NCBI GenBank assembly: GCA_030431255.1
Contig: JAUIJL010000004.1
Span: forward strand, 434,001-498,000
Direction of reading: 5' to 3'
Length of the DNA stretch: 64,000 bases
Source of the DNA: Thermoanaerobaculia bacterium
Lineage (GTDB): Bacteria > Acidobacteriota > Thermoanaerobaculia > Multivoradales > J023
The position numbers were made by a program, and so were the translations under genes. The notes below the pieces were generated by a model that was not told the origin of the DNA, searched no databases, and saw nothing but the letters and a program-made list of their open reading frames with translations. Positions 9,888-19,828 of this stretch are shown piece by piece (position 1 is the first letter of the stretch; each line of letters begins with the position of its first letter).

Positions 9888-11274
9888 TCCTGTGGCTTCG
9901 GAAAAACCCGTGGCTTCAACAGACACCGTGGCTTCGACAGACACCGTGGCCACGGAAGACACATACGGCCCGGTGCCCACGGGCCGCACGGCGAGCGGCT
10001 CGATTCGCCTTCCGGGCTCGAAAAGCATCACCCAGCGGTATTTCACCCTCTCCTTGCTCGGCCGTCGGGCCCTGACCATTCGTGGCCCTCTGCTTTCGGA
10101 GGACACGCGTTTCTTTCTCGCCGCCATGGAGACCCTGGGTTTCCGGGTACGGATTGAAGAGGGCTCGGCAGCGGGGGTCGCCGTGCATCTCGAGCCGCCG
10201 GAGGCGAGCCGGCGAGAAGCACCGAAAACGGGAGACATTTGGTGCGGGGCCGGCGGCACCATGTTTCGGTTCATGACCGCCGCCTTGTCGGCGGTCCCAG
10301 GAACCTGGACCTTAGACGGCATCCCGCGGTTGCGGGAGCGACCCATCGCACCGTTGATCTCGGCCTTGCGTCAATTGGGGGCGCGCATCGACTGCCTGGA
10401 CCACGAAGGTCACGCGCCCATGCGCATCCACGGCGGCAGCTTGAGGGGCGGTGCCTGCACCCTCGACGCGGGTGCTTCGAGCCAATATCTTTCCGCTCTG
10501 CTGATGGCCGGTCTGGTGACCCCGGAGTCGACCCGCGTCACCGTCAGCTCCCTGACCTCCGAGCCCTACGTGCACCTGACCCTCGATGCGATCCGCGAGC
10601 TCGGCGGCGAGGTGCGGCAGGACGGACCGGAGTATCGCATCCACCGTGCTCGACCCACCGGCGACACGGTCACTGTTGAAGCGGATTTCTCCGCGGTCGC
10701 CTACCCGGCCGCCGCGGCGGCTTTAACCGGCGGCCAAGTGCTGATTCGCGACGTGCGCGAGACGTCCCGCCAAGGGGATCGCGGCTTTGTCGACGTGCTG
10801 GCTCGGATGGGCGCCGAGGTGGCATGGACCGATGCCGGTCTGAGGATCCGCGGTGGCGAGCTGAACGCGATCGAGGCGGATTTGGAATCCATGCCCGATC
10901 AAGTGCCGACTCTGGCGGCCCTCGCCCCCTTCGCCCGGGGCACCACCCGGATCGTCAATGTGCCCAATCTTCGGCTCAAGGAAAGCGACCGCCTAGCGGC
11001 CATGACTCAGGAGCTACAACGGGTCGGGGCCGAGGTCGAGGAGCTGCGAGACGGCTTGGTGATCCCCGGGATCTGGGCCGACCGAAACCCACCGAGCAGG
11101 CCGGTCCCGCCGAACAGGCCGGTCACCGTAGATACCCACGGCGACCACCGGATTGCCATGGCCATGGCATTGGTGGGCCTACGACGACCGGGTATTTCTT
11201 TGGCTGAGCCCCAGGTGGTGGCCAAGTCGTATCCCGAATTCTGGCGCGACTTCGAGGAGCTGATTCAACCGTGA
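9865..11274 (+). CDS. aroA: 3-phosphoshikimate 1-carboxyvinyltransferase (EPSP synthase)
   Basis: 469 aa. Makes EPSP from shikimate-3-phosphate and PEP, the sixth step of the shikimate pathway. Signatures: RLPGSKSITQR (Lys53), GAGGTMFRFMTAAL, LRERPIAPLISALRQLGA, DAGASSQYLSALLMAGL, RLKESDRLAAM and DTHGDHRIAMAMALVGL. ATG 9865 follows GGAG-TGGAG; a TTG at 9856 is the only other in-frame choice. The first 33 residues are not conserved and contain four six-residue repeats (VASEKP, VASTDT, VASTDT, VATEDT) from 18-bp units. A second 18-bp duplication encodes PPSRPV-PPNRPV in a C-terminal loop near residue 409. The TGA overlaps the GTG start of the sigma-54 regulator. Confidence 0.96.
   Translation: MASHSTSDPVASEKPVASTDTVASTDTVATEDTYGPVPTGRTASGSIRLPGSKSITQRYFTLSLLGRRALTIRGPLLSEDTRFFLAAMETLGFRVRIEEGSAAGVAVHLEPPEASRREAPKTGDIWCGAGGTMFRFMTAALSAVPGTWTLDGIPRLRERPIAPLISALRQLGARIDCLDHEGHAPMRIHGGSLRGGACTLDAGASSQYLSALLMAGLVTPESTRVTVSSLTSEPYVHLTLDAIRELGGEVRQDGPEYRIHRARPTGDTVTVEADFSAVAYPAAAAALTGGQVLIRDVRETSRQGDRGFVDVLARMGAEVAWTDAGLRIRGGELNAIEADLESMPDQVPTLAALAPFARGTTRIVNVPNLRLKESDRLAAMTQELQRVGAEVEELRDGLVIPGIWADRNPPSRPVPPNRPVTVDTHGDHRIAMAMALVGLRRPGISLAEPQVVAKSYPEFWRDFEELIQP
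9892..9963 (+). repeat. four 18-bp tandem units in aroA 5' end
   Basis: Units begin at 9892, 9910, 9928 and 9946, each starting GTGGC(T/C). Units 2 and 3 differ by one base, units 1 and 4 are more diverged. They encode hexapeptides VASEKP/VASTDT/VASTDT/VATEDT ahead of the EPSP synthase core. Confidence 0.9.
11089..11124 (+). repeat. 18-bp tandem duplication inside aroA
   Basis: CCACCGAGCAGGCCGGTC (11089-11106) is followed directly by a copy with two substitutions (11107-11124), in frame, giving PPSRPV-PPNRPV just before the DTHGDHR active-site block. Confidence 0.85.
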
Positions 11275-14200
11275 ACGAGACCGCCGCACCCCGACGCCTC
11301 CTGCACGTCTGCCTGAGATCCCTCGGCGTTCAGGGGTCTCTCCCCAACGGGAACGGCAGCGACGAATCCCAGCATCGAGGCACTCTGCTCAGCCAAGCCC
11401 GACTCAATGACCAACAGCGGCTGGCGGTGGTCTTTCAGGGCGCGGCCCTCATGGCCCATTTGGAGCACGGCGGTTTCTACCTCACCACCGGTGAAGCCGC
11501 ATCCGCCTGGGAAGATGCGACCATCGACCCGGCCGGGCGGCTGCAAGTCGGTGATGTTCATCCGGGAAGCGCCGCGGATCTTCCGCAGACCTTCATGCGG
11601 CAGCTCCTATTGATCGCGTTTCAGAGCGAAAACACTGTGGCCGGGCGGGGAACGGCCCGGCGCATTGCCCGACGGCTTCTGGAGCTCTGGCATCATCGGC
11701 TGACTCCCATCTCGCCGGATCTGGCGGTCATGGAATTGCTCAGCAGCGCCGAATATTTGTGGTCCCCGAGCTTTGCGGAAGCGCGGAAAGCATTGGTCGG
11801 CGAGCATCTCCGGGGCGAGGATCGACATCCTTGGGTGGTCGGCCCCGGCAGAGCCCGGCGCCTTTTTCTGCGCCGGGCCGCCGCTGAGGACGAGATCACC
11901 CGAGCCGGCCTCGAGTCCTTGGCCGCCTCGGGCTTCGCTCGGGAGCTTTGGGACGGGTTCGAAGACGACCCGGACGCCGACCCGTGGCAGCTCTATGAGC
12001 AAGGGAGGTGGCAGCACGCCGCGGCGTTGTGGCGACGGGCGAGCCGTCGAACCAAGGCCGAGACCTTGGCCTTCGCCCGGTGCTTGCGCGCCACCGGCCG
12101 GTCTTCCGAGGCCCTGGCTCTCCTGCAACGACGGCGCGACGTGGAGGGTTTGCTGCTCAAAGCCACCTGCCAGCTCGACTTGGAAGAGCGACCGGCAGCG
12201 GATAAAACCGTGCATTTGCTGCTGGAGCAAGATCTGGAAGACCTGCAGCTGGTGGCTGTCGCCGAGATTCATATTCGCTTGGCAGCGGCTCGCTATCAAC
12301 ACCAAGTGCTGCGCAAATGGATCGCCAAGATGCTCAGCTTGACCTCCCAGCCGGCCCGCTCCGGAGGCCTGGTGGTGGCCGCAGGAGCCGCTTTCGACGT
12401 CGGCGATTTCCCCGCCATGGGGCGATATTTGGACCAAACCGAGGATCCGGAGACCCTGCCGCCGGATCTGGCCGTGCAGTGGCATCAGCTCGAAGGGCTT
12501 CGCCGTTGGCAGGCCGGGGACGGTCCGGGCTCCGTCGAGCACCTGACCCGAGCCTTGTCCATGCATCGGCGCAAGCTGCATCTGATCACCGCGGCAAGGC
12601 TTTGGAACGATCTGGCGCTGGCCCGCGAAAGCACCGGCGATCTCGCCGGCGCGGAGCACGCTTGTCGCCACTCCCTGCGCCTCTTCGCACGGTGCGAGGG
12701 TCGGGCTCAAAACACCCTCGGGCTCTACAATTTGGCGGAGCTGCGGGTCCGCCAAGGCCTGCTGCGCGGAGTCGCCGATATCCTCGAGCGGTCCACCGCG
12801 GACAACCGACTGACCGGCAACAAGCGAGGCCTAGCCCACGACCTCGAGCTGTGGGCGCGCTATGAGCTTGCCCAAGGGCGACCCACGGCCGCGCTGGCCC
12901 GCTGTGCAGAAGCGCGACAGTCGGGCGAGGTCTGCAACCAGGCCAATTTGGATGTGCTGGCAGCCCGAGCCCACGGCTGGCTGGGTGAAACGCAGCAAGC
13001 GGAGGCCTGCCTGAATCGTCACGATCCCGAGGCCCTGGACATTCTCGACCCCGAGGAGCGTCCGGCCGCTTGGGCCCTGGCCGGTCGATTCGACGACGCC
13101 TGCCGACTGACCGAGGGCACCCCCTGGCAAGAGCCTTGGGCTTCTCTCGCCGCTGGATTGCACCCACCTTCGGTGTGTTGGGCTCAGCTCGACACCCTCG
13201 ATCCTTTTCGTTCGGCACGGCTGATTTTCGATTTGGAAACCTTGATGCCGGGGGTGGTCCCCCCTGCCCGATTACGTCGAGCCCTAGAGCTGCTGCGCAA
13301 ACGCAGGCTCGCCGGTTTTGTGGAGGTATTGGAGCAGCGGGCCACTTCTCCGTGGATGGCGATCACCGAATATCTCGGCCGAGACACGAGCCTCGGCGCC
13401 ATCGCCGAGCTGCTGCAAAACGCCGGCTACGGGGAAGCTAGCTTGAGTCTCGAAGATGGCGATCAAACCCGCGTGTTGGTGGCCGGCAAGACCGAGGCCC
13501 GCAACCCCCGAGCCACCCGGTATCGAGTCATGCTCGAATCCGGAGCGCTGACCCTCGAAGCCGACGAAGGGCGTCCAGATCCGGTGCTCGAGGCGCTATT
13601 CTCCTTGGTCGCCCGTGATCTCGGCCGAGGATCCGAGACCTCGAACGGCACCAGCCTGGCGGAGATGCTCGAGGCCGCAACGGCTGTGGGACAAGTCGCC
13701 GATGTGAACGACCCGAATGCCCACTCCGGCCACGGCGCCAAACCCGATCACAGCGGCATCATCGGTGAGAGCCCCGCGCTGCGAGACGCCCTCCGAAAAA
13801 TCGACCGCTTGGCCCGCGGCGACCTGCCGATCTTGATTCTCGGCGAAAGCGGCACGGGAAAGGAGCTGGCGGCTCGGCGGGCCCACCGGAGCAGCCTACG
13901 AAATAGCGGCCCATTCCTACCTCTGAACTGTGCCGCCATTTCAGAATCCTTAATTCAATCGACTCTCTTCGGCCATGTGCGTGGAGCCTTCACCGGCGCC
14001 GACCAAAACCGGGCGGGCATTTTCGAAAGCGCCCGGGGAGGAACGGTATTCCTCGATGAAATCGGTGACCTTCCGCTGGCGGTTCAGGGCAACCTGTTGC
14101 GGGTGCTTCAGGAAGGGGAAATCCGTAGGGTCGGCGATACCTTGGCCCGAAAAGTGGATGTGCGGATTGTTGCCGCGACCCATCGGGACCTCGCCAAGAT

Positions 14201-14687
14201 GGTCGACGAAGGCAGCTTTCGACAGGATCTGTATTTCCGTCTTCGGGTGGCCAAAGTGGTGCTGCCGGCCTTGAGGGATCGGGATTCAGATTTAATATTG
14301 TTGGCCGAATTCTTTGCCCTTCGCGAACGGGGAACACGCATCAGCGCATCGGCGCGAAAGGCTCTCAGCATCTATACATGGCCCGGTAATATTCGCGAGC
14401 TGGAAAGTGTCGTCCGGGTAGCGGCTACCTACAGTGATTTTGAGGTGATTCGTACCGAGCATTTAGCCGATGCGGGCATCCCGATCGACGAATCCATCTC
14501 CGAGGAACCCGCTTCCCCGGCTCCGGGTCCCAGCAAGGATTATCATCAACTTGTGGAAGAGTACCGCAAGGAACTGGTATCTACAGCTTTACAGCGCCAT
14601 GGAAAGAATCAGTCCGCGGCGGCGAGAGACCTCGGTATGACCCGCCAAGCACTTTCTTACTTGGCCCGAAAACTAGGTTTACTGTGA
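11271..14687 (+). CDS. sigma-54-dependent activator with TPR-like repeats and Fis-type HTH
   Basis: 1138 aa, GTG start overlapping the aroA stop (GTGA). Architecture: an unrecognised N-terminal region (1-230); helical TPR-like repeats about 235-620 (e.g. [40 protein letters not shown]); a GAF-like alpha/beta segment about 690-790; a sigma-54 AAA+ domain from about 829 with Walker A GESGTGKE (858-865), GAFTGA (905-910, the sigma-54 contact loop) and Walker [13 protein letters not shown]; and a C-terminal Fis-type HTH ([20 protein letters not shown]). There is no phospho-receiver domain, so activity is probably controlled by protein contact through the repeats or by a ligand of the GAF-like part. 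The intact GAFTGA predicts true RpoN activation. No recognisable -24/-12 promoter was seen in the gap after it. Targets are unknown; the tandem-HTH gene next door is a neighbour but has a sigma-70-like promoter. Confidence 0.93.
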
Positions 14688-14713: not shown

Positions 14714-14742
14714 TTGACATTGCCCAATTCCTATCTAAAAAT
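14714..14742 (+). promoter_or_regulatory. sigma-70-like promoter for the tandem-HTH gene
   Basis: TTGACA at 14714-14719 is a consensus -35; with 17 bases of spacer the -10 would be AAAAAT (4 of 6). The leader to the ATG at 14964 would be about 215 bases, unusually long, and includes GTTGGTT...AACCAAC, a 7-bp stem around a large loop (about 14815-14850). Confidence 0.5.
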
Positions 14743-14963
14743 GCTAGGGTTGATGTTTCACTTGAGGCTTTCGGAAGGAGCACTCTAGAACGTTCCAATC
14801 AAGCGCAAAAGTAGGTTGGTTGAACGTGCACCACACCGTCCAAACCAACGCGCAAACATCCGCTAAATGCCGATGAAAGCTCTCGAACCGAGCCTTATCC
14901 CTTGAATCGATCCCCTAGACCAGATCGGTGCCCAATTCAGATCTAATCCTTTAGGAGACTCTA

Positions 14964-15689
14964 ATGGCTGATGAAGAAAAACTGTATACCTTGACTGAAG
15001 TCGCCAAGCTTACCGACATCTCAATGCCGACCCTGCAACGCTATAAAAAGTTGTTTCAAGATCGAATCCCATCCCGTGGAGCAGGGCGAACCCAGCGATA
15101 TCCGGAAGAGGCTTTGGACATTTTCCGAGAGCTCAAAAAAGAAAATATGAAAAAGCGGGGACGGCCGCGCAAGAACGCGTCCGCGGATTCCCGCCCGAAA
15201 CCCGCCGTACGCCGTCGGCCTGTGCCCCAAACACCTTTGCCGGCCAGCCACGATAGCGATCAAGGGCTCCTGACTCTTAAACAAATCGAAGAGCTGACCA
15301 ATATTTCTTACCCCACCCTGCTGCGCTACGTAAAAACGAGCCTCAAACGCATTCCCCATCGCGGAACCGGTCGAAAGCGCCGCTTCCTACCCGAGGCGGT
15401 CAATGTGTTCAGGACCCTACGAGAGGAAAGCCGCCGCGGGCGGAAGGGACCGGCGAAGGTCACCAGCGCCGCGACCACCACGATTCGGCCGCGGCCGGTG
15501 CCCGCGGCATCCACGGCTTCCGCCCCAGCCCCAGCGTCCGGTGGAGCCGGCGGTGGCGCTGAGATGGCCGAGCTCCTCCAGGCCATGCGAGAGCTGCAGA
15601 AATCTCACGCGCAGCTTCAACGCGACGTGGCACGGCTCGAAAAAGAGCTGAGCAAACCGATGAAAGTCATCCTTAAACGGGGCGGTTGA
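14964..15689 (+). CDS. tandem MerR-like HTH protein with AT-hook-like linker and coiled coil
   Basis: 241 aa. Two clear copies of one MerR-type helix-turn-helix: LYTLTEVAKLTDISMPTLQR (about 7-60) and LLTLKQIEELTNISYPTLLR (about 96-150). Both continue with RIP-RG-GR--R--PEA---FR-L, so the whole unit is duplicated. After copy 1 comes KKRGRPRKN, an AT-hook-like minor-groove motif; after copy 2 a basic stretch, then an Ala/Pro linker, and finally a coiled coil (LLQAMRELQKSHAQLQRDVA, about 205-230) suited to dimerisation. There is no ligand domain as in classical MerR regulators. The protein is thus built to hold four HTHs per dimer and may act as a DNA-organising factor or regulator with extended sites; this is inference. 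ATG follows TTTAGGAGAC. A strong promoter-like sequence lies 215 bases upstream. The preceding gene is the sigma-54 activator. Confidence 0.85.
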   Translation: MADEEKLYTLTEVAKLTDISMPTLQRYKKLFQDRIPSRGAGRTQRYPEEALDIFRELKKENMKKRGRPRKNASADSRPKPAVRRRPVPQTPLPASHDSDQGLLTLKQIEELTNISYPTLLRYVKTSLKRIPHRGTGRKRRFLPEAVNVFRTLREESRRGRKGPAKVTSAATTTIRPRPVPAASTASAPAPASGGAGGGAEMAELLQAMRELQKSHAQLQRDVARLEKELSKPMKVILKRGG

Positions 15690-15696
15690 CTCGGAC

Positions 15697-15755
15697 AGGT
15701 CTGATGGAGACCAGGTCTGATGGAGACCAGGTCTGATGGAGACCAGGTCTGACGG
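15697..15755. repeat. tandem 16-bp mini-hairpin array (3.7 units)
   Basis: AGGTCTGATGGAGACC is repeated at 15697, 15713 and 15729, followed by a partial copy at 15745. Each unit contains GGTCT...AGACC, a 5-bp stem with a 5-base loop, so neighbouring arms can also pair in alternative ways. It fills the gap between two convergent genes (tandem-HTH and thiL) and may act as a two-way transcription stop. Confidence 0.9.
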
Positions 15756-15788: not shown

Positions 15789-16799
15789 TTATCCGTCGAG
15801 ATGCGGTCCCCGGTCTCGGGCCAGATGATCCCAACCGCTGGGGGGCAGCTCTCTGAGCTGCCCCCTTTGCCTCAGCATCACTCGGTGCCCTCGGCAGATC
15901 TCTCCAATCGGTCGAGCTCCCAGCTCGGACGGAGCTTCCTCTCGGGCCGGCAGGGTGAAGCACAGCACATAGTCCTCTCCACCGCCGAGCGCTGAGTGCA
16001 ACCAGGGCTCGTCCACCAGCGGCTCGAGCTCGGACCAGCCTGCCGGCTCCGGCAACGCATCCGCTTCGATCACCGCACCGATACCGCTCGCCCGGCACAG
16101 GCGATGCACGTCTTTTGCCAGACCGTCGGAAATATCGATGGCTGCGCCCTGCCGCCGCGTTGTTGCCAATCGACGGCCCAGCTCCAGCTGTGGCTCCGGA
16201 CGTAGATGCCGCATGACGCATTGTGCGGCGGTCGCTGAAGCCTCGGGGCCGAGGCGACCGAGGGCGGTCAAATCTACTCGATTCTCCCGCAAACAGGCCC
16301 CGAGCCGGATCAAAGCGAGGCCCACCGCCGACTCTCCCACGGAGCCCCCGAGCCAAAGCCGATGACCCGGCCGGGCACCGCCTCGCTCCAGGAAACGCCC
16401 ATCGGGAAATGGCTTGCCGATGAGCGTGAGGGCAGCGGTCACGGTCGGCTGGGTGGAAAGATCCCCACCGGAAAGCTCGACACGGTAGGCCTCACAGCCT
16501 TCTAAAAAGCCTTCGAAGAAACGCTTGAAGTCAAAGCTCGACGGCGCGGAGAGCGCCAGAAACGCATAGGCGGGCTCAGCTCCCATGGCCGCCAAATCCG
16601 ACAAATTGACCGCCAACAGTCGACGGGCCACTTGCGCGGGATCCGTGCCGGAAAAGAAATGAACGTTTTCGATTTGGCAGTCGACCGTGGTGACCCAGGG
16701 ACCCCCGGCCGGCAAGATCGCGGCATCGTCACCGATGCGCTCGCCTCCTTGACCCCGAGCTCGCCGCTTCAGCCAACGGATCAGATCGTCTTCGTTCAC
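15789..16799 (-). CDS. thiL: thiamine-monophosphate kinase
   Basis: 336 aa; phosphorylates thiamine monophosphate to the pyrophosphate cofactor with ATP. Recognised by the AIR-synthase/ThiL fold: GERIGDDAAILPAG (metal-binding Asp pair), TTVDCQIENVHFF, VNLSDLAAMGAEPAYAFLAL, GGDLSTQPTVTAALTLIG and AIDISDGLAKDVHRLC. The length is normal (about 325). The start codon overlaps the stop of lon by 4 bases (ATGA-type junction), so it is translated from the lon message. No thiamine riboswitch or other thi genes are near. Confidence 0.95.
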   Translation of the reverse strand: MNEDDLIRWLKRRARGQGGERIGDDAAILPAGGPWVTTVDCQIENVHFFSGTDPAQVARRLLAVNLSDLAAMGAEPAYAFLALSAPSSFDFKRFFEGFLEGCEAYRVELSGGDLSTQPTVTAALTLIGKPFPDGRFLERGGARPGHRLWLGGSVGESAVGLALIRLGACLRENRVDLTALGRLGPEASATAAQCVMRHLRPEPQLELGRRLATTRRQGAAIDISDGLAKDVHRLCRASGIGAVIEADALPEPAGWSELEPLVDEPWLHSALGGGEDYVLCFTLPAREEAPSELGARPIGEICRGHRVMLRQRGQLRELPPSGWDHLARDRGPHLDG

Positions 16800-19222
16800 C
16801 GGCTGTCGAGGTCATCTGCCGTGTCTTGCGAGGGTCGCAAGGCGAGGCTCAATACCTCGTCCATATGCGTCAAGGGATGGAAATCGACTTTGCCCTTCAG
16901 ACTTCGGGGCAGCTCTTTGAGATCTCTCTCGTTGGGCGCCGGAATGATGACCGTCTTGATGCCCGCAGCGTGGGCGGCCAGGGTCTTTTCCTTCAAGCCA
17001 CCGATCGGCAGGATGTCGCCCCTCAGGGTGATCTCACCGGTCATGGCCACCTCCCGGTCGACTGCCCGAGAAGACAATAGAGAGATCAAAGCCGTCGCGA
17101 TGGTGATTCCTGCGGACGGACCGTCCTTGGGAATGGAGCCCGCCGGCGCGTGGACGTGCACGTCGAGATCCCCGAGAGCGCGGCGCACGTGATCGCGGTC
17201 GGGCTCGGGAGCAGTCTCCCCGGAGCCCAGCTGCCACTCTTCCGGACAGCGGGCGAAGTAGCCACGCACATAGGTCCATGCCGCTTGCGCCGACTCGCGC
17301 ATCACATCCCCTAATCGACCGGTCAAATGCAGCTTGCCTTTGCCCGGCACGGCGGTCACCTCGATCACCATCAAATCGCCGCCGGTGGCGGTCCAAGCCA
17401 AACCCGTGGCCACGCCGATCCGGTGGCGATCCAGCAGTGTCTCGCTGAAATTCCGCTCGGGACCCAACATATTTTCGATGTGGGTGTCGCTCAGCCGGGA
17501 GGCGTAACGACGATTCTCAGCCACCCGCACCGCCACTTTGCGGCACACCGAGCCGATCTCTCGCTCGAAGCTACGCAAGCCGGCCTCGCGGGTATAACCA
17601 CGAATCAGCTTCTTCAGCCCTTTGTCGGTAATGTGGACTTGATCCCGTTCGAGACCGTTCTCACGCAGCTGTTTGGGCAGCAGGTGCCGACGGGCGATCG
17701 TGAGCTTTTCCTCTTCCGTATATCCGGACAGGCGGATCACTTCCATGCGATCTAGAAATGCCGGCTGAATCGGATCGAGCAGGTTGGCCGTGGTGATGAA
17801 CATCACCTTCGAAAGGTCGTAGGACACTCCGAGGTAGTGATCACGGAAGGCGTCGTTCTGCTCGGGATCGAGCACTTCCAACAAGGCCGAGCTCGGATCC
17901 CCGCGATAGTCGGCACCAATTTTGTCGATCTCGTCGAGCATGAATACCGGATTGCTGGTGCCCGCTTGGCTCAAGCCTTGTATCACCCGGCCGGGCAGGG
18001 CCCCGACGTAGGTCCGTCGATGGCCTCGAATCTCCGCCTCGTCTCTGACCCCGCCCAAGGAAATACGAATGAACTTGCGCCCAAGCGCTCGGGCAATGGA
18101 CCGGCCGAGGCTTGTCTTGCCCACCCCTGGCGGGCCGACGAAACACAGAATCGGTCCCTTGGCGTCTTGCCTCAGCCGACGCACGGCCAAGAATTCCAAG
18201 ATGCGCTCTTTCACCTTGAGCAAGCCGAAGTGGTCTTCGTCGAGAATCCGCCGAGCTCGCTGCAGGTCGAGATCGTCTTCGCTGAGCGTTCCCCAGGGAA
18301 GGCCGGTCAACCAATCCAGGTAGGCGCGGATCACCGGCACCTCGCCACTCTCCGGATGGGTGCGCTCGAGTCGCCGGAGCTGTTTTTCCAGCTCCTCTCG
18401 GGCCTCCTCGGGCACCGCTTTTTCTTCCGCCGATTGACGGTATTGGGCGATTTCCTCCGAGAGGTCTTCGAGATCTCCCAGCTCTTCCTGTATCGCCTTC
18501 ATCTGCTGGCGCAGGAAGTATTCCCGATGGCTGCGGTCGATCTCGCCCTGGGCTTGGATGGAAATCTGGTGTTGCATCTGCAACAGCTCAAGCTCCCTCG
18601 CCAGCAGCTCGCTGACCTTCTGCAAGCGCTCGTGAGGGTGGATCGTCTCCAAAATCGTCTGGGCGTCGGAAAGGTGAAGCTCCAGATTCGAGGCGGCCAA
18701 ATCCGCCAATCGGCCCGGGTCGTCCAGATTGGCGGCCAGCACCATCACCTCCGGAGAGAAGCCTTTACCCAGGTGCAGGGCCTTTTCGAGCTGATCCCGG
18801 GCGCTGCGCACCAAAGCCTCGCTCTCAAGCTCCGAGGTCTCTGAGTCGACCTCGGGCACCTCTACCTCGGACACTCGCCCCTTGAGGAACGGTTCCTCCT
18901 GGCTCAAGGAAAGCAACCGCGCTCGACCGATGCCCTGAACCAAGACCCGCATCCTGCCGTCGGGCAGCTTGAGCATCCGCATGATCAAACCGACGGTGCC
19001 GAGGGTGTGGAGGTGCTCCAAAGACACGTCCGGAACCTCGGCGTCTTTGCGCGCCACCATCATCACCAAGCGATGCTCGGCCAAAGCTCGGTCGATGGCT
19101 TGCACCCCGCGGTCCGGCTCCACCGAGAGGGGGACGATCACATAGGGGAAGACCACCGTTTCCTTGAGCGGAAGGACGGGAAGGACGTCGGGAAATTCTG
19201 CGGGATGCTGCAGCTCGTTCAA
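16796..19222 (-). CDS. lon: ATP-dependent Lon protease
   Basis: 808 aa, normal length. N-terminal substrate-binding LAN domain (PVLPLKETVVFPYVIVPLSV), long helical region (about 190-290), AAA+ with Walker A GPPGVGKTSLGRSIA and Walker B VFMLDEIDKIG, and a protease domain with Ser703 (PKDGPSAGI) and Lys746 (GGLKEK), spaced 43 residues as in E. coli Lon. It degrades misfolded and regulatory proteins in the cytosol. The start is a TTG at 19220-19222; no ATG is in frame near it. It is preceded by a 111-bp gap with a tandem hairpin repeat after nrdR and overlaps thiL by 4 bases. No heat-shock promoter was recognised. Confidence 0.97.
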   Translation of the reverse strand: MNELQHPAEFPDVLPVLPLKETVVFPYVIVPLSVEPDRGVQAIDRALAEHRLVMMVARKDAEVPDVSLEHLHTLGTVGLIMRMLKLPDGRMRVLVQGIGRARLLSLSQEEPFLKGRVSEVEVPEVDSETSELESEALVRSARDQLEKALHLGKGFSPEVMVLAANLDDPGRLADLAASNLELHLSDAQTILETIHPHERLQKVSELLARELELLQMQHQISIQAQGEIDRSHREYFLRQQMKAIQEELGDLEDLSEEIAQYRQSAEEKAVPEEAREELEKQLRRLERTHPESGEVPVIRAYLDWLTGLPWGTLSEDDLDLQRARRILDEDHFGLLKVKERILEFLAVRRLRQDAKGPILCFVGPPGVGKTSLGRSIARALGRKFIRISLGGVRDEAEIRGHRRTYVGALPGRVIQGLSQAGTSNPVFMLDEIDKIGADYRGDPSSALLEVLDPEQNDAFRDHYLGVSYDLSKVMFITTANLLDPIQPAFLDRMEVIRLSGYTEEEKLTIARRHLLPKQLRENGLERDQVHITDKGLKKLIRGYTREAGLRSFEREIGSVCRKVAVRVAENRRYASRLSDTHIENMLGPERNFSETLLDRHRIGVATGLAWTATGGDLMVIEVTAVPGKGKLHLTGRLGDVMRESAQAAWTYVRGYFARCPEEWQLGSGETAPEPDRDHVRRALGDLDVHVHAPAGSIPKDGPSAGITIATALISLLSSRAVDREVAMTGEITLRGDILPIGGLKEKTLAAHAAGIKTVIIPAPNERDLKELPRSLKGKVDFHPLTHMDEVLSLALRPSQDTADDLDSR

Positions 19223-19289
19223 CGCATCTTCTTCGGTTGGAAATCTTGGGGGGACGCCCCAGAGTCGGGTCGCTTGAGGGGACAGTTTT

Positions 19290-19345
19290 AGCTGGACGGT
19301 CTCCCCAGCTTCAGCTGGACGGTTCTTCCAGCTCTAGCTGGACGG
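19290..19345. repeat. tandem 23-bp units with AGCTGG/CCAGCT hairpins
   Basis: AGCTGGACGG recurs at 19290, 19313 and 19336 (period 23). In the first two units AGCTGG is matched by CCAGCT 15 bases on, giving 6-bp stems. The third unit lies over the 3' end of nrdR, so part of the array is coding. It sits in the nrdR-lon gap on the minus strand. Confidence 0.88.
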
Positions 19346-19828
19346 ATCTTCCGTCGGCTCCGACTCTTCGGACGGGGGTTTATTCAGCAAGCTTTGGATC
19401 TCTTCGACAAACGAGCCGATATCCTCAAAGCGACGATACACCGAAGCGAATCGGACGTACGCCACCGGATCCAAGTCGCGCAGCTGCTCCATCACGATCA
19501 AGCCGATCTCCTGGGTCGAGATCTCCCGCTCTTCCCGCTGGTGTAACCGCTGCTCGATCTGCTCTACCAGCGCCTCCTGCTTACGAGCGGGAATCGGCCG
19601 TTTCTCACTGGCCTTGAGCAGACCCGCCAACAGCTTCTGGCGGTTGAACTCTTCTCGACGACCGTCGACCTTTACCACCAAATAAGGGATCGCTTCGATT
19701 TGCTCGTAGGAAGTGAAACGGCGACCGCATGCCAAACACTCCCGCCGTCGGCGGATGGTGGCACCGTCCCGGCTTTCCCGGGAATCGACCACTCGGTCGT
19801 CATTAGTTGAGCAAAAAGGGCATTTCAT
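19334..19828 (-). CDS. nrdR: NrdR transcriptional repressor of ribonucleotide reductase
   Basis: 164 aa. Zinc ribbon Cys3-Cys6/Cys31-Cys34 (MKCPFCSTNDD ... CLACGRRF) followed by an ATP-cone domain (VKVDGRREEFNRQKLLAGLL ... YVRFASVYRRFEDIGSF). NrdR senses ATP/dATP and represses nrd genes at NrdR boxes. No nrd gene or evident NrdR box is in the window. The last ten residues (EESEPTEDPSS region) are not conserved and overlap the 23-bp repeat array. It lies between the MglA-type gene (49 bases upstream) and lon, on the same strand. Confidence 0.96.
   Translation of the reverse strand: MKCPFCSTNDDRVVDSRESRDGATIRRRRECLACGRRFTSYEQIEAIPYLVVKVDGRREEFNRQKLLAGLLKASEKRPIPARKQEALVEQIEQRLHQREEREISTQEIGLIVMEQLRDLDPVAYVRFASVYRRFEDIGSFVEEIQSLLNKPPSEESEPTEDPSS

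Follow-up and report, generated by a model that had tools for sequence, protein, structure and literature searches.

What does a protein with two MerR-type DNA-binding domains in one chain do, and is its position beside a giant σ54 activator more than a matter of address? The question is raised by an open reading frame of 241 codons (14964–15689, + strand), with an AGGAG 5' of its ATG (14953–14957), in the window, a stretch of 64,000 nucleotides from a Thermoanaerobaculia bacterium. A first-pass annotation had described its product as an internally duplicated MerR-like helix-turn-helix (HTH) protein, and the duplication is borne out. The two copies are homologous, far above chance: residues 4–70 and 99–165 form a gapless alignment with a BLOSUM62 local score of 147, compared with a mean of 27 (sd 5) and a maximum of 52 in 2000 shuffles. 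In Pfam, the whole protein matches HTH_17 (48.4 bits, cut-off 27) and MerR_1 (34.2 bits, cut-off 21.6), each in two stretches, and the halves scanned separately score near these cut-offs (24.4 and 26.4 for HTH_17, 21.9 and 19.6 for MerR_1). The fold of the second copy had been set as a test of the annotation. AlphaFold2, given the window's protein together with 27 relatives taken from named records (28 sequences), predicts a winged HTH (wHTH) for both copies, with pLDDT of about 97. Pfam, a hidden Markov model (HMM) of the unit, AlphaFold2 and the comparison of contact residues place unit 1 at residues 6–60 (14979–15143, + strand) and unit 2 at residues 101–155 (15264–15428, + strand).

Between the units runs a basic linker with a KRGRPRK core (residues 61–100; 15144–15263, + strand), delimited by Pfam, by its charge and by AlphaFold2, where it is mostly of low confidence. 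'AT-hook-like', the term of the first-pass annotation, is the right word for it, because the core is present yet the AT-hook profile PF02178 scores 13.9 bits, below its cut-off of 17.4. The RGRP core occurs somewhere in the protein in 24 of the 28 two-unit members of the family and in none of the 14 members with three or four units. The linkers of family members consist of 20–47% Lys and Arg, and the predicted pI, 10.9 for the window's protein, lies between 10.5 and 11.9 in 41 of the 42 members. At the C-terminal end, AlphaFold2 and the heptad registers predict a coiled-coil helix (residues 198–230; 15555–15653, + strand): it is modelled as one helix with pLDDT of about 95, and the best of its seven registers has hydrophobic residues at 8 of the 9 a/d positions, the other registers having at most 5. 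By eye, the C-terminal end of most aligned members is similar to this helix. The coiled coil of the earlier description is thus retained as a prediction, one that would make an oligomer multivalent. The linkers are modelled at low confidence, and the arrangement of the domains is not predicted, because the pTM is 0.38 and the pLDDT of the inter-unit linker of about 40 residues is near 50.

BldC of Streptomyces, the founder of the BldC family of MerR-like proteins, served as the yardstick for DNA contacts; its sequence was checked against PDB 6ama, and the roles of its contact residues were taken from passages of PMC5859096. The counts cover 42 first and 57 later units (99 in all). The equivalent of BldC W31 is Tyr and that of R48 is Arg in all 99 units, and at the R30 position every later unit has Arg, as do 37 first units, the other 5 having Lys. 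At the R47 position the units part: Gln is found in 40/42 first units and Arg in 54/57 later units, an order-wide asymmetry which indicates, as far as aligned residues can, that the units have kept different wings. In the window's protein, the residues corresponding to R30, R48 and, as Tyr, W31 are kept by both units, R47 being confined to later units. The His46 wing contact of BldC is not kept, this position being mostly Lys, Arg or Thr in unit 1 and mostly Lys in later units. Judged by these residues, both copies look able to bind DNA and neither looks decayed. A simple pattern for a basic G-R/K arm within 16 residues after the unit is matched after 32/42 first and 55/57 later units; by eye, several of the units without a match come close to the pattern, and one such case is masked.

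Foldseek returns MerR-type wHTHs (CarH, BldC, RacA, BmrR, SoxR) and TraN, all with E values above 0.001, and a second structural comparison gives modest Z scores of about 7–8. When solved structures were searched with a profile of the unit alignment, only weak HTH matches appeared and BldC was absent, BldC having come from the fold search. The first-ranked Foldseek match for the wHTH is CarH (5c8e, E 0.013). CarH and CarA are B12-binding light sensors with one wHTH, whereas Pfam detects no B12-binding domain in the tandem protein. The DNA-binding domain of RacA from Bacillus is also alike (5i44, Z 7.8, rmsd 2.6, 61 aligned residues); RacA has one wHTH per chain, a coiled coil and a chromosome-organising role. 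Its DNA-bound form is described as a symmetric dimer in PMC5859096. BldC itself shares the wHTH fold (Foldseek 6ama, E 0.041, 30% identity over 53 columns), and is described in the passages available as a protein of 68 residues with one wHTH and no coiled coil that oligomerises head-to-tail on direct repeats (PMC5859096), whereas the units here are covalently joined in tandem, with basic linkers and a predicted coiled-coil helix. TraN, from the enterococcal conjugative plasmid pIP501, likewise has two MerR/excisionase-like wHTHs in one chain and accounts for the best-ranked Foldseek matches that span both units (ranks 2, 4, 5 and 9; 151–154 columns); its domains match and their arrangement does not, because the rmsd is near 20. 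In the passages available (PMC4981023, PMC10877727) TraN, with 14.4 kDa, forms a compact internal dimer, and no coiled coil is described; the TraN-like plan has a central barrel, an arrangement on which the low-confidence linker of the model gives no prediction. TraN is plasmid-borne, whereas the tandem protein is chromosomal and no plasmid relative of it was found. The HspR fused homodimer (NF047377), by name an internally duplicated MerR-type regulator, is a precedent for tandem fusion, and the window's protein, with 14.6 bits against a cut-off of 300, is not a member. No curated NCBIfam cut-off is passed by the protein, and in Pfam only the general HTH_17 and MerR_1 models match. Each ingredient is therefore known from precedents, namely MerR-type wHTHs, BldC filaments, the TraN chain and the fused HspR. 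What appears to be new, and was not found in searches of the open-access literature, is the combination read from these sequences: two to four multiplied units with basic linkers between them and a predicted coiled coil at the end.

In its own genome (10.19 Mb) the window's protein matches a single place, itself. At E 1e-10, 53 of the 148 genomes of the class match, all from the window's order, where they make up 53 of 72 genomes including one fragment (G048); none of the 76 genomes in the rest of the class does. The gene can be lost, since 19 of the 72 order genomes have no match and one of the 53 matches is a fragment. A draw of 396 genomes from the phylum gave 22 matches, 20 from the window's order and two (L118, L119) from another family, the last two being a differing protein with one clear unit. 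In L118 (601–1623) the unit is accompanied by a C-terminal HARE-HTH domain (Pfam), and the protein of L119 (6909–7946) resembles it by eye. Among named records, a scan with the window's protein alone found nothing and an alignment query gave 27 loci in metagenome bins. The titles of these bins read Acidobacteriota/Acidobacteria, Thermoanaerobaculia, Thermoanaerobaculum or Holophagales, apart from one 'uncultured bacterium' and one labelled Deltaproteobacteria. Plasmids, phages and viral contigs, the last searched by peptide patterns, yielded no relatives. Searches of the open-access literature found no study of this family. The protein belongs to an unnamed family, best explained as chromosomal and vertically inherited. 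The first-pass annotation had called for a database search of the two-HTH architecture; this family, its synteny and its three- and four-copy versions had escaped it.

The number of units varies within the family. Counted with the unit HMM in 42 members (the window's protein and 41 relatives; of the 53 matching order genomes, 10 without a fetched sequence and the fragment lie outside the count), it is two in 28 proteins, three in 13 and four in one, three being a minimum at one locus interrupted by a masked stretch. The 14 members with three or four units are all from genus g7, in which no locus examined has fewer than three. In a midpoint-rooted tree of units (54 columns), the 42 first units separate completely from the 57 later ones, a split with weak support (73/29). 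The second units of g7 form one group (99/86) and its third and fourth units another (98/84), the two groups being sisters (91/44), and in the four-unit protein unit 3 pairs most closely with unit 4 (99/75). The simplest reading of this tree is that the duplication is old, occurring before the order diversified, and that the distal unit was later re-duplicated. The four-unit protein (L066, 7150–8790) also bears a long acidic repeat, rich in Pro, Glu and Ala, that separates the last unit from the C-terminal end; the protein is the one member whose pI, 8.7, lies outside the range of the other 41. Single-unit relatives exist elsewhere in some genomes. Those of L043 (8001–8342, a frame of 114 residues with a GRPRK arm) and L044 (7355–8071) have one unit with a basic G-R arm after it, and lack the neighbourhood described below; they are possible look-alikes of the ancestor.

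In the window, the gene order is aroA, the σ54 activator, the tandem wHTH gene, a convergent thiL, lon, nrdR and a small-GTPase gene, all names except that of the activator having been given by eye, and this block from aroA to the GTPase gene recurs in most relatives. The activator (11271–14687, + strand; ORF, Pfam and synteny) is a protein of 1138 residues with AAA+ and Fis-type HTH domains, in which GAFTGA is present by eye. The closest syntenic neighbour, by the ORF list, synteny and distances, is the thiL-like gene (15789–16799, − strand), followed in the conserved block by the lon-like gene (16796–19222, − strand; ORF list and synteny). Of the 41 relatives, 38 have a thiL match beside the tandem wHTH gene; among these 38 loci with both genes, the gap is −73 to 179 bp in 37. 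Of the three relatives with no thiL match, L068 is at a contig end, and L035 and L048, of the same genus, have none in more than 7 kb on that side. The fate of the slot was followed in genomes of family f3 that have both flanks in one stretch; L107, L108, L110 and L111 (f9, f2), which also lack the gene and have incomplete or distant flanks, were left out. In four f3 genomes without the tandem wHTH gene (L104, L105, L109, L121), the place between activator and thiL is held by a GAF-domain gene, and in L104 a remnant still matches the C-terminal end of the family (it scores 96, and the best of 2000 shuffles 43). In L106, another genome of f3 and the fifth considered, there is no thiL within about 4 kb.

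Upstream, a putative σ70-type promoter, TTGACA-17-AAAAAT, matches the consensus at 10 of 12 positions (14714–14742, + strand; pattern match) and ends 221 bp 5' of the ATG, which agrees with the leader of about 215 nucleotides and the consensus −35 of the earlier description, provided that this promoter is the one used. Within 250 bp upstream, matches of 10 or 11 of 12 occur in 21 of 26 two-unit relatives, a count that leaves out the two-unit locus L065, with less than 250 bp upstream, and the single-unit loci L043–L047. The second hexamer is GATAAT in 11 and AATAAT in 6 of these 21. In the upstream regions of six neighbouring genes, a match of 10 was found in 1 of 173; many of these control regions are coding, and the fairer controls, nrdR and the GTPase gene, gave 1 of 49. 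A match of at least 10 is lacking in 5 of the 26 two-unit relatives, and none of the 14 three- and four-unit loci scores above 9; in the genus of the latter the clearest conserved upstream block is a TTCTGCTAT-like box, perhaps an extended −10. As pattern matches go, then, a strong promoter recurs across most of the order. The perfect-consensus pattern occurs once in the genome, at another place. Of the strong and post-transcriptional regulation proposed earlier, the promoter half is supported and the leader half is not. The leader has no Rfam match up to E 1 and folds no better than its shuffles (z-score 0.03), so that a role as a riboregulator was rejected, and the distance from the −10 to the extrapolated start ranges from 48 to 209 bp in the 21 promoter-bearing relatives.

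The leader also contains an 18-bp direct repeat, located by a genome pattern search. Copy A (TGCCCAATTCCTATCTAA; 14721–14738, + strand) begins at the second base of the promoter spacer, fills the rest of the spacer and extends over two bases into the −10 hexamer; copy B (TGCCCAATTCAGATCTAA; 14929–14946, + strand) lies 208 bp away, just 5' of the ribosome-binding site, and is identical at 16 of 18 positions. The best score over 15 shuffles was 13. The repeat may be an operator, or it may have arisen by chance or by local duplication. It was absent from the leaders of 20 relatives examined, where no conserved direct repeat was seen, and 18-mer repeats at least as good occur in 2 of these 20 leaders, one of them by eye in coding sequence; for these reasons it is a lead and not a result.

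How, then, might the protein work? One explanation makes the tandem protein a partner of the σ54 activator, for which it would bend the DNA between enhancer and promoter. IHF bends DNA at other σ54 promoters, and by analogy with it such a role could be imagined for a gene that comes next on the same strand in a block common to many relatives. This explanation is nevertheless improbable: across the 35 loci with both genes, the activator match and the first unit lie between 152 and 3083 bp apart, with more than 1 kb in 14, and the activator persists in the four f3 genomes that have no tandem wHTH gene, although in L121 only its AAA+/C-terminal part matches. The giant activator does adjoin the gene, as was first noted, and it is a neighbour, not a tight partner. 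A somewhat better case, still an unlikely one, can be made for a site-specific factor with a small and mainly autoregulatory regulon, a TraN-like chain sitting on a long composite operator while its coiled coil loops together the two 18-bp copies. The pattern TGCCCAATTCNNATCTAA, allowing two mismatches, occurs exactly twice in the 10.19 Mb genome, both times in this leader and once between −35 and −10, and because of this uniqueness a dedicated operator fits better than a general packager. TraN, itself MerR-like with two wHTHs, binds a 34-bp site and regulates its own promoter in the passages available of PMC10877727. This explanation is weakened by the relatives' leaders, from which the repeat is missing and among which equal or better ones occur, so that the window's repeat may be chance or a local duplication, and it leaves the retention of the gene across the order and the multiplication of its units unexplained.

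Two further explanations start from the domain matches and carry very little probability. A mobile-element origin as excisionase or recombination directionality factor would account for the HTH_17 match, for a score of 26.1 bits with the excise model TIGR01764, below its cut-off of 28.8, and for the similarity to PHROG 66, 'excisionase and transcriptional regulator' (E 2.2e-11). The gene is present in one copy in the window's genome, in a conserved chromosomal neighbourhood of housekeeping genes, and no relative turned up in plasmids, phages or, by peptide patterns, viral contigs; on these grounds a mobile origin was rejected. The MerR_1 match and the MerR-type folds would equally suit a classical MerR sensor-regulator with an effector domain too diverged to recognise. 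Past unit 2, however, the model shows nothing beyond a stretch of low confidence and a single helix, and Pfam finds no effector domain, so the protein departs from the classical plan of one wHTH, a dimerisation helix and a C-terminal effector domain, as had been pointed out from its two genuine wHTHs, while keeping the MerR-type wHTH itself.

The reading preferred here, to which slightly less than an even chance is given, is that of a strongly expressed, multivalent architectural DNA-binding regulator, chromosomal, vertically inherited and perhaps autoregulated through the 18-bp repeat, for which DNA binding, oligomer state and function are inferred. In the manner of BldC, each wHTH unit would insert its recognition helix into a major groove and reach with its Arg-rich wing into the minor groove next to it, and the basic arm that usually follows the unit could add minor-groove or backbone contacts. 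If units 1 and 2 read different half-sites, one chain would grip a composite site, and a chain with two half-sites, basic arms and a coiled coil might bind cooperatively. Joined by the C-terminal coiled coil, a dimer or larger oligomer would hold at least four sites, and could bend, coat or bridge DNA; its own promoter may be repressed through the repeat. Bridging or the occupation of long tandem sites, as the first-pass annotation suggested, is plausible on this architecture; the abundance and the many chromosomal sites expected of a nucleoid-associated protein are presumed from proxies, namely pI, promoter and unit number. An architectural role fits better than a one-promoter switch because of the high charge, the strong promoter and the growth in unit number; two, three or four units are expected if valence matters. 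The wHTH folds of both units, the residues kept at several BldC contact positions, the predicted coiled-coil helix, the single genome copy and the conserved neighbourhood are also counted in favour of the architectural reading. Counted against it are the gene losses, the HU/IHF of every order genome, the unique 18-bp repeat, the lack of a His46 equivalent and the acidic repeat and pI of the four-unit protein, as well as the promoter missing from three- and four-unit and some two-unit loci, the coding sequence in many promoter controls and the Foldseek E values.

A bolder form of the architectural reading, which is possible but more doubtful, would make the family an order-specific nucleoid-structuring class in which valence evolves by tandem multiplication of BldC-type wHTHs on histone-tail-like basic linkers. 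Oligomerising through its coiled coil, such a 'covalent BldC filament' would bridge or coat the chromosomal DNA. A replacement of HU by the tandem protein is ruled out, since HU/IHF-type proteins are found in all 72 genomes of the order. If the architectural reading were right, a lineage of the Acidobacteriota, a phylum common in soils, would possess a home-made DNA-organising protein whose DNA-reading heads were multiplied by duplication. The orthologues with two, three and four units offer a natural series in which valence can be set against affinity, bridging and gene silencing, and the family connects the single-domain BldC filaments with tandem proteins such as TraN.

Two short tandem repeats lie close to the gene. 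A 16-bp repeat, CAGGTCTGATGGAGAC, is present in 3.6 copies (15696–15752) right after the stop codon of the tandem wHTH gene; it is absent elsewhere in the genome with up to one mismatch, and its interpretation as a binding-site array finds no support. A 23-bp repeat, CAGCTTTAGCTGGACGGTTCTCC, in 2.9 copies (19283–19349), is located between the lon-like and nrdR-like genes and reaches the end of the latter.
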